Shown: positions 13,684 to 15,048 of the stretch, piece after piece
How the letters are laid out: each line of letters begins with the position of its first letter
Numbering within the stretch: the stretch's first letter is position 1
Origin: Oscillospiraceae bacterium
GTDB taxonomy: Bacteria; Bacillota; Clostridia; Oscillospirales; Acutalibacteraceae
Direction of reading: 5' to 3'
Assembly (NCBI GenBank): GCA_009784445.1
Contig: WRBQ01000002.1
Location: 1 to 35,859, forward strand
DNA length: 35,859 nucleotides
The notes under the pieces: model-generated
What the model saw: the letters and a program-made list of their open reading frames with translations, nothing else
Told to the model about the DNA's origin: nothing
Database searches by the model: none
Program-made: the position numbers and the translations under genes

Positions 13684-14137
13684 ACCGGCCAAAGCCGAAG
13701 ATTACCACGCCGTGGCCCGCGTGCAGCAGCAAGTTGCGCAGCTGCATCACAACTGGCGGCCGGATGTCTACTGCCCAGCAAAGCAGTACGACAAAACCCG
13801 CTACGAAGAACTTCTCGTCAACCCCGACACTCCTATTTTCGTTGCTGAACAGGATGGGCAAGTGCAGGGCTATGCGATGCTGCGGGTGATCACCCCGCAA
13901 AACCCAGTGATGGTGCAGCGCAGTTACGCGCATGTCGAGGACCTATGCGTGGATGAAACATGCCGTAAGCAAGGCGTGGGCGAGGCACTCATGCGCGCTG
14001 TGGAGGATTTTGCACGCCAGCGCAAGCTTGACGCCATTGAGCTGGGCGTGTGGGAATGCAACAAAGCCGCCCGTAAATTTTACGAGCGGCTGGGTTATAC
14101 CACGCAACGGCGCGGACTTGAAATTAAAATTAGCTGA
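13667..14137 (+). CDS. GNAT-family N-acetyltransferase
   Basis: 156 residues with the acetyl-CoA loop RKQGVGEALM after the VEDLCVDE strand, and the C-terminal NKAARKFYERLGY segment typical of GNAT enzymes. The substrate is unknown. The start lies 17 bp inside the GH13 gene with GGGAG at good spacing, so it is coupled to it. Its last 8 bp overlap the end of the convergent microprotein ORF at 14130. Confidence 0.9.
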   Translation: MSWKIRPAKAEDYHAVARVQQQVAQLHHNWRPDVYCPAKQYDKTRYEELLVNPDTPIFVAEQDGQVQGYAMLRVITPQNPVMVQRSYAHVEDLCVDETCRKQGVGEALMRAVEDFARQRKLDAIELGVWECNKAARKFYERLGYTTQRRGLEIKIS

Positions 14138-14240
14138 AAAAGCCAATTGCTAGCAGAATCAATGCAACCGGCACTGCCCACGAAGCAAGAACGCCCGCGG
14201 CCCAAAGTGTTAAGTCGGTAATAGTCATTAAGAAGCCCAT
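14130..14240 (-). CDS. Array microprotein 6 (36 residues, one membrane helix)
   Basis: Last ORF of the tiny-gene array. It begins MGFLMTITDLTLWAAG and ends ALILLAIGFFS; the only charged residue is Asp9. One long hydrophobic stretch with two internal tryptophans and a proline. Ribosome site AAAGGAAA at good spacing. The gap from microprotein 5 is 24 nt, and its end overlaps the convergent GNAT gene by 8 bp. No clear similarity to the A or B types of the array. Confidence 0.65.
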   Translation of the reverse strand: MGFLMTITDLTLWAAGVLASWAVPVALILLAIGFFS

Positions 14241-14264
14241 GAGATTTTCCTTTCACAAAAAAAT

Positions 14265-14363
14265 TTAGTTAAATGCCCAGCGAGCCAAAGTAATCAGCAA
14301 CGAGATGATTGCGGCGATAATGAGAACACCGCTACCAAGCATCCAAAGTTCATTCAGCAGCAT
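14265..14363 (-). CDS. Array microprotein 5, type B (32 residues)
   Basis: Begins MLLNELWMLGSGVLIIAA and ends SLLITLARWAFN. It aligns without gaps to microprotein 3 (shared start ML, a central I-A-I, then LLI and a terminal WAF), so the two are paralogues. One membrane helix; one Glu, one Arg. It has the best ribosome site after that of the first ORF, AAGGAGAT, which argues strongly that it is translated. Confidence 0.75.
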   Translation of the reverse strand: MLLNELWMLGSGVLIIAAIISLLITLARWAFN

Positions 14364-14399
14364 AAGTAGGATCTCCTTCCTAAGTCAAAATCAAACAAA

Positions 14400-14425
14400 G
14401 CCCCCCTCGCCCTCGCGCAGGGGGC
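14400..14425 (-). terminator. Hairpin between array microproteins 4 and 5
   Basis: GCCCCC and GGGGGC arms around a GC-rich loop, followed on the minus strand by TTTGTTTGATTTT. Standing in the only large gap of the array (73 nt), it could act as a partial terminator that lowers expression of ORFs 5 and 6, or as a processing/stability hairpin. No new promoter was found downstream of it. Confidence 0.6.
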
Positions 14426-14436
14426 GCATGGTTCAG

Positions 14437-14550
14437 TTAAAATACATAGCGATTCAGCAGGCCAATCACGCCCAAAATAGGCAGAGCAAGGGTCGCAATG
14501 CCCAGTAGCACGCCGCCGACACTAACCAACAATCCAGTAATGGCTTCCAT
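14437..14550 (-). CDS. Array microprotein 4, type A (37 residues)
   Basis: Begins MEAITGLLVSVGGVLLG and ends LGVIGLLNRYVF. It shares with microprotein 2 the ME start, a glycine-rich helix and the LL-x-R-aromatic end, so the two are paralogues. A single hydrophobic helix with a negative residue at the start and an arginine near the end. Ribosome site AAAGGAAC. The hairpin at 14400-14425 follows. Confidence 0.72.
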   Translation of the reverse strand: MEAITGLLVSVGGVLLGIATLALPILGVIGLLNRYVF

Positions 14551-14579
14551 AAATGAAGTTCCTTTCTTTAAATAGATGG

Positions 14580-14675
14580 TTAAAAGAATGCCCAATTCAC
14601 TACACTAATGAGCAAATAAACAATCGCTGTAATCATCACGACTGCGGCAGCCAAAGAAAAAAGTTGCGATAACAT
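14580..14675 (-). CDS. Array microprotein 3, type B (31 residues)
   Basis: Begins MLSQLFSLAAAVVMITAIV and ends LLISVVNWAFF. No charged residue at all; a single membrane helix. Paralogous to microprotein 5. Ribosome site AAAGGAAA; gap of 29 nt on either side. Confidence 0.72.
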   Translation of the reverse strand: MLSQLFSLAAAVVMITAIVYLLISVVNWAFF

Positions 14676-14704
14676 GGCTAATTTCCTTTCGTTTTGTCAG
14701 TAAT

Positions 14705-14800
14705 CTAGCTAAGCACGCCAAAGCGATACAGCAGACCCATTACACCAATCGTGCTGGCAATAGCGCCAAGCATTGCACCAACAAGAGCCAAAATTTCCAT
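14705..14800 (-). CDS. Array microprotein 2, type A (31 residues)
   Basis: Begins MEILALVGAMLGAIAST and ends GLLYRFGVLS. Glycine- and alanine-rich helix with small-residue spacing (G-x3-G-like) that would favour tight helix packing; one Glu at the start, one Arg near the end. Paralogous to microprotein 4. Ribosome site AAAGGAGA. Confidence 0.75.
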   Translation of the reverse strand: MEILALVGAMLGAIASTIGVMGLLYRFGVLS

Positions 14801-14844
14801 AGTAATTCTCCTTTTCTGTCAAGTAAGTTTCGGTTTGCGGTTGA

Positions 14845-14928
14845 TTAGGACATCATCACAGAAACGCCCAAAATCGACAAGAGTACCCCTACCACGAGGA
14901 ACGCAAGTGAGCTAAAAATGCTAGGCAT
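14845..14928 (-). CDS. Array microprotein 1 (27 residues)
   Basis: First ORF of the array, directly behind the promoter. It begins MPSIFSSLAFLVVGVLLS and ends with ILGVSVMMS; uncharged, a single membrane helix. Perfect ribosome site AAGGAGGT (14936-14943) with 7-nt spacing to the ATG, and a leader of about 25 nt. These are the best possible translation signals in the window. Confidence 0.78.
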   Translation of the reverse strand: MPSIFSSLAFLVVGVLLSILGVSVMMS

Positions 14929-14958
14929 ACGCTGCACCTCCTTCAAATTGATGCTACA

Positions 14959-14987
14959 AGTATATCACAAATTGTCCACTTTGTCAA
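14959..14987 (-). promoter_or_regulatory. Near-consensus sigma-A promoter of the microprotein array
   Basis: TTGACA (14982-14987 on the minus strand), exactly 17 bp, then TATACT (14959-14964). One of the strongest promoters of the window; it fires away from the purO promoter at 15049-15077. Confidence 0.85.
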
Positions 14988-15048
14988 GCATAGAAATTTA
15001 CATTTATGCATTGTTGCATGACAAAATTTGCGTATTTATGAAAAACAC

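Follow-up and report, generated by a model that had tools for sequence, protein, structure and literature searches.

In the stretch of DNA analysed here (hereafter the window, 35,859 bases), six short open reading frames (ORFs) follow one another on the minus strand between an IMP cyclohydrolase gene and a convergent GNAT acetyltransferase gene (Table 1). They form a tandem of short ORFs devoid of leader peptide, with spacers of 44, 29, 29, 73 and 24 nt from P1 through P6, and the end of P6 overlaps the 3' end of the GNAT gene by 8 bases. Each ORF starts with ATG, encodes one hydrophobic helix and is preceded, 4-7 nt upstream of the ATG, by a ribosome site, from AAGGAGGT at P1 through AAGGAAAA at P6; lysine is entirely lacking from the six peptides of the window. 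The original prediction had placed six minus-strand ORFs of 27, 31, 31, 37, 32 and 36 codons at 14130..14990, each with ATG, a well-spaced ribosome site and a single hydrophobic helix, behind a TTGACA-17-TATACT promoter: all six are present there, the three traits were found in every one of them, and the promoter was located.

Table 1. Coordinates of the array, its flanking genes and related small ORFs. Positions refer to the window unless a locus (L) is named.
Feature	Position	Strand	Remarks
P1	14928-14845	minus	27 aa; no K, R, D, E, H, C or Y in the window's copy
P2 (A)	14800-14705	minus	31 aa; E2 near start, R26 near end
P3 (B)	14675-14580	minus	31 aa; C-terminal WAFF
P4 (A')	14550-14437	minus	37 aa
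P5 (B')	14363-14265	minus	32 aa; P3 paralogue; window's species only
P6	14240-14130	minus	36 aa; net charge -1; window's species only
Promoter TTGACA-17-TATACT	14987..14959	minus	11/12 consensus; TG ahead of -10
P1 ribosome site AAGGAGGT	14936..14943	minus	same in three species
Terminator-like hairpin and U-rich tract after P4	14386..14426	minus	fold -22.7 kcal/mol, z -2.6
IMP cyclohydrolase gene (purO)	15116-15823	plus	Pfam PF07826; one flank of the array
GNAT acetyltransferase gene	13667-14137	plus	convergent with the array; other flank
30-32 aa single-helix ORF	L102 1273-1371; L103 2444-2542; L104 2247-2345	minus; plus; plus	ORF filter

The array stands out against chance. Six ORFs in the whole window, all of them array members, passed a strict filter that required 25-40 aa, an ATG, five or more contiguous bases of AAGGAGGT and a hydropathy of 2.0 or higher over 17 residues; in 1000 dinucleotide shuffles of 14100-15010 this filter found no ORF in 995 and one in 5. 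A looser filter adds a single 57-aa ORF in the window (34727-34900). Over 107 loci, two or more ORFs passed the strict filter in 22, of which 20 are array-bearing; at the other two, L102 and L103, the paired hits are alternative ATGs of a single ORF.

When 60 genomes, among them 14 of the genus, were searched at the DNA level, matches came from the genome of the window itself and from two congeners, G001 (81%) and G003 (80%). Both carry P1-A-B-A' in the order and between the flanking genes found in the window, and both end after A'. The preservation of reading frames, starts and ribosome sites in relatives was a check suggested with the original prediction; for P1-A-B-A' they are kept in both congeners, together with the promoter, and no frame was lost. 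Identity of the orthologues to the window's peptides is 78% and 74% for P1 (L002 and L003), 84% and 81% for P2, 90% and 74% for P3, and 86% and 74% for P4. Indels in the three-species alignment fall in the spacers and, within the ORFs, solely in the last codons of A' of G003. Over the 118 codons of the four genes, the three species pairs differ at 64, 73 and 90 bases, which produce 18, 28 and 31 amino-acid changes, against 39.2, 45.1 and 50.7 expected when the same substitutions are placed randomly. With the four genes pooled, none of the 5000 random placements made per pair was as conservative as the observed changes, a synonymous bias that was the second check suggested. Gene by gene, at most 196 of 5000 placements were as conservative in 11 of the 12 comparisons, the exception being P1 between G001 and G003 (470 of 5000), where no selection is shown. 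Overall dN/dS is 0.15, 0.37 and 0.18 for the three pairs; the neighbouring IMP cyclohydrolase has a dN of 0.019 and a dS of 0.87 between G001 and G003, and the peptides are therefore faster-evolving than the enzyme, yet clearly constrained. The four ORFs P1, A, B and A' are tiny proteins under purifying selection. Leader peptides are typically short ORFs with good ribosome sites, and the array ORFs, which share this trait, could be regarded as by-products of the same kind or of a functional RNA. This reading is largely refuted by substitutions that spare the amino acids, and the terminator-like hairpin after A' in the relatives and the lack of any Rfam match in the window also speak against it; we consider it extremely improbable.

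Within the array, P3 and P5 (B and B') are unmistakably related (Smith-Waterman z 10.4, none of 2000 shuffles as good), and their genes can be aligned at the DNA level too, while P2 resembles P4 (A and A') only modestly (z 3.2, a level matched by 14 of 2000 shuffles). Of the two paralogous pairs that had been announced, the former thus stands and the latter is weak. A profile comparison was considered as support for A/A' (P 0.021) and set aside: since P1/A' (0.018) and A/B (0.085) stand beside it, profiles alone fail to support this paralogy. A second B-type match was not found in the 13 congeners by profile search, and relatives of P6 are absent from the genus, the only match among 14 genomes being the window's own, so that P6 is the least certain gene of the array. 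It follows that the A-B-A-B order is not supported in the form proposed, since the relatives end at P1-A-B-A', where they have a terminator-like hairpin; the argument that an A-B duplication implies a two-part assembly is thereby weakened, having a single species as its basis and a weak similarity between A and A'. It is possible that B' and P6 are a species-specific extension or that they were lost in the relatives. As judged from the IMP cyclohydrolase genes (94 differences between the relatives, 102 and 105 of 705 between each of them and the window), the relatives are slightly nearer each other, and a single loss of B'-P6 on their side and a single gain in the window's lineage are therefore both possible.

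The organisation of transcription leads to the same division into four plus two. In both relatives A' is followed by a hairpin and a U-rich tract (fold z -5.5 and -3.6), and the U tract of the window's counterpart, which lies at the same place, is less regular than theirs; a scan for consensus terminators listed none inside the array, and the hairpin after P4 was not listed either. P1-A-B-A' looks like a single transcription unit, whereas B' and P6 likely sit behind a partial transcription barrier. The idea of six genes under one promoter is therefore retained for the first four and doubtful for P5 and P6, given the hairpin and U-rich tract between P4 and P5. The lone promoter-like site near the last two genes (14388..14359, 9/12 match) overlaps the start of P5 and cannot drive it with a leader; it might drive P6. 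Both hexamers of the array promoter are identical across the three aligned species, and this promoter is presumably a strong one of housekeeping type, with a leader of about 24 nt. Ibs and Ldr toxins occur in tandem arrays, and tandem type I toxins have a separate promoter for each copy. It can be asked whether the array encodes such type I toxin-like peptides silenced by RNA. The accessible text of PMC8309996 gives tandem duplicated small hydrophobic proteins among the search criteria for ZorO, and describes IbsC, LdrA and other peptides of 19-35 aa as toxic when overmade. Part of the P1 ribosome site is paired in the fold predicted for the window; however, the P1 start regions of the three species fold no better than shuffles. 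The single strong promoter with its short leader, the lack of a plus-strand promoter-like site between 14130 and 14990 in a scan limited to the sigma-70 consensus and the Rfam result also argue against RNA-silenced toxins, which we hold to be very unlikely.

With regard to distribution, profile searches of the 14 genomes of the genus gave convincing matches in three (B plus B'; A plus A'), the absence from the other 11 being softer because three of them are at most 80% complete. Beyond the genus, the window's genome alone gave a convincing match among 394 genomes of the order (profiles A2, A4 and A1), 200 of the family (A3) and 391 of the class (A5); G001 and G003 are absent among the matches listed for these samples. 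A scan of 84,980 species genomes, made with B alone, returned two records, the metagenome-assembled genomes (MAGs) Emb289P1bin98 and Co191P1bin34, and gave no credible relative in addition; the array-carrying congeners are termite-gut Oscillospiraceae MAGs. Weak matches outside the window's genome were discounted as relatives, namely those of profile A3 in 55 of 199 family genomes (E 0.026-0.97), of A2 and A4 in 9 (E 0.007-0.047) and 7 (E 0.007-0.017) of 393 genomes, and of A5 in one of 390; within the genus, G008 with A2 (E 0.058) and G004 and G008 with A6 (E 0.02 and 0.34) were treated likewise. Many weak profile matches are fragments in long frames or frames containing stops, and the ORF filter found no array at the weak-match loci that were retrieved. 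Neither Pfam nor NCBIfam gave anything above cut-off (P3 was weakly matched to DUF2701 at E 0.041 and to another family at 0.83, P1 to ATP synthase subunit A at E 0.062), PADLOC gave no match, and none of the PHROGs matches of the six peptides is credible (P3 at 0.024, the best, on part of the profile, and at 0.074; P4 at 0.38 and 0.78). Against PDB sequences, B had just a pair of matches (E 1.4 and 1.7), and A plus A' had none. In viral contigs, B, A, A' and P1 had 26, 130, 43 and 24 pattern matches, none of them confirmed, and plasmids and phages searched with B only had no match. Among the genomes searched, the array is confined to one clade. No description of such an array was found in the literature as represented by titles and abstract openings, with little subscription literature, and the accessible part of PMC10903887 does not mention one.

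One resemblance deserves a separate account. Peptide A resembles one helix in the S components of PanT-like ECF transporters. Homology was considered and set aside in favour of a convergence of Gly-rich helices that surfaced among a large number of comparisons, which is not proven. Against 394 genomes, the best E value with peptide A was 5.2e-4 per genome, and 15 genomes besides the window's own, 12 from a single family, had matches at E <=0.02. At the five loci inspected, of which Pfam named L089 only, pairwise scores with peptide A were 60-64, above all 500 shuffles; the helix of the S components at L089 1321-2004 (-) and L090 1051-1764 (+), beside a gene that we take to be coaX, reads TIGVMGLIY for TIGVMGLLY of peptide A. 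The relatives in the window's genus, found in 12 of 14 genomes, nevertheless score 31-47 against peptide A, and the one from the window's own genome aligns with it at a different helix, with a score that 31 of 500 shuffles also attained.

The flanking genes scanned encode a 2TM protein, an alpha-glucosidase of the alpha-amylase family, the GNAT protein and IMP cyclohydrolase. No large membrane partner, transporter or immunity family was found among these four, in agreement with the earlier statement that no transporter or immunity gene lies nearby. The accompanying statement on modification genes has to be qualified, as the convergent GNAT gene touches P6 and adjoins the array in all three carrier species. 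The window's GNAT gene overlaps the end of the glucosidase gene by 17 nt; the two are adjacent in the three array species, and a GNAT gene beside the glucosidase was not found in 10 of the 11 other congeners, in a survey where the G006 contig ends at the glucosidase and G010 and G002 were covered for just 348 and 480 bases downstream. GNAT is the faster-diverging neighbour, with identities to the window's protein of 63% (G001) and 52% (G003) and 93 of 155 aligned residues shared by G001 and G003, against about 91% for the glucosidase and 94% for IMP cyclohydrolase. The IMP cyclohydrolases of other congeners are at most 79% identical to the window's; this distance and the common rearranged locus make the three carriers look like one clade, and GNAT and array may occur together simply through common descent. 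Further small ORFs were seen at these loci. In G001, a tiny ORF, MLEIILAMCLLLICWSLIVHLTQDKD, with a strong ribosome site lies between the 2TM gene and the opposite-strand glucosidase gene (L070 8697-8777 (+)); G003 has a 65% identical copy (L068 235-315 (+)) and the window no credible match. Also in G001, the IMP cyclohydrolase gene is followed by two hydrophobic ORFs in a row, 58 and 60 aa long and each with a ribosome site (L070 4470-4842 (-)); they have no Pfam match, and the filter lists none such in the window.

The peptides are neutral, except P6 of the window and A of G003, both at -1, and their GRAVY values lie between 1.5 and 2.1. These values bear on the possibility that they are multi-peptide antagonists in the manner of leaderless bacteriocins, active unprocessed and, once released, entering the membranes of competitors. 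Small peptides restricted to one lineage can serve antagonism as well as structure, and the variation in gene number among species within a single clade is what would be expected of competition genes. In its accessible part, PMC6131525 describes a similar layout of three to four leaderless peptides of about 30 aa for aureocin A70 and garvicin KS; however, the leaderless multi-peptide rows compared there have charges of +2 to +5 and GRAVY values of 0.0-0.7. Both charge and hydropathy of the array are outside these rows, which upholds the proposal that it is uncharged in a way leaderless bacteriocins are not. As the scanned flanks also hold no transporter or immunity family, we regard release against competitors as unlikely.

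We propose instead a cell-autonomous membrane assembly. An operon encoding four or more tiny membrane proteins (P1-A-B-A', to which this species adds B' and P6) would be expressed constitutively from the strong housekeeping-type promoter, and each product, one neutral and very hydrophobic helix, would be placed in the producer's own membrane, as expected in view of the lack of an export signal, of an adjoining transporter and of charge. The helices may pack, perhaps through Gly/Ala/Ser-rich faces, into one hetero-oligomeric bundle whose subunits would all be about 30 residues long, and this bundle could itself alter membrane behaviour, by an ion or solute leak or by its packing. The fixed order, the common promoter and purifying selection together suggest joint action. 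AlphaFold2 models B and A' as single helices (residues 2-30, pLDDT 95; residues 2-36, pLDDT 94), and these predictions say little beyond helicity. A conserved helix face, which packing would lead one to expect, was not significant by permutation (p 0.10 for P1, 0.70 for A, 0.76 for B, 0.04 for A', 0.15 combined). Expression, location, co-assembly and function are what we infer here, and we give a constitutive, cell-autonomous hetero-oligomeric assembly of neutral single-helix peptides slightly less than an even chance. More tentatively, and with some doubt on our part, the array could be a self-contained membrane machine made only of nearly non-ionisable helices of about 30 residues, which arose in one termite-gut clade and gained two subunits species-specifically. 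Both named carrier MAGs were assembled from the P1 gut compartment, and the available text of PMC7024585 gives Embiratermes neotenicus for Emb289 and Cornitermes sp. for Co191 and describes that compartment as highly alkaline. The near absence of ionisable side chains could therefore be a membrane adaptation to high pH, the window's species being presumably termite-dwelling as well.

The array species' genomes suggest that more tiny membrane genes exist there. An ORF of 30-32 aa with a single helix and a ribosome site lies outside the array in the window's genome, G001 and G003 (Table 1). At L102 two genes on its own strand precede it, one ECF S component-like (1459-2025) and one coaX-like; an additional ORF, of 26 aa, is present in G001 (L103 2191-2271), and the ORF filter found no 30-32 aa ORF at the matching G007 locus, L105. 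The ECF-adjacent ORF would exemplify a partnered kind of tiny membrane protein. The array peptides might themselves be accessory single-helix subunits, like CydX, KdpF and AcrZ, and belong to one or several larger membrane complexes whose genes lie elsewhere in the genome. Their size and topology are typical of such subunits (PMC4325964 and PMC7267776, as far as accessible), the three array species have the tiny ORF behind an ECF S component-like gene, and in A, A' and B' of the window an acid near the N-terminus and an Arg near the C-terminus suggest a fixed orientation, although A of G003 is devoid of that Arg. Subunits of a conserved complex should nevertheless be widespread, and 11 of 14 congeners have no array; no large membrane gene adjoins it, and four co-transcribed subunits without the large one would be unusual. 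We judge an accessory role improbable, and the self-standing hetero-oligomeric assembly remains our preferred reading.

Compared with known systems, the array bears a partial likeness to several. CydX, KdpF and AcrZ are small and consist of one hydrophobic helix, like the array peptides; KdpF is a single-helix accessory subunit, and so are the small subunits of the photosystems and of cytochrome b6f, some of which are encoded in rows (psbEFLJ). CydX, KdpF and AcrZ travel with a large partner, whereas none lies beside the array, which was found in one clade only. The Ibs, Ldr and Zor type I toxins share with it the small hydrophobic single helix and the tandem duplication (for Zor, the accessible part of PMC8309996), but they have an RNA antitoxin, whereas the array has a single promoter, and the scan showed no promoter-like site on its antisense strand. 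Aureocin A70, garvicin KS and the cereucins are, as here, leaderless peptides encoded together, three to four in number and of 27-34 residues; their loci have conserved neighbouring genes (PMC6131525, accessible text), whereas the four flanking genes scanned beside the array include no transport or immunity family. Since its likeness to bacteriocins, type I toxins and accessory subunits is partial in each case, the array is filed under none of them and remains, as a kind, an operon of small membrane proteins. It lets one ask whether single short helices can make up a working membrane complex, and how tiny membrane genes arise and multiply within one genus. To our knowledge, the well-studied tiny membrane proteins all work beside a large partner, whereas here four to six of them are encoded together with no partner in sight.
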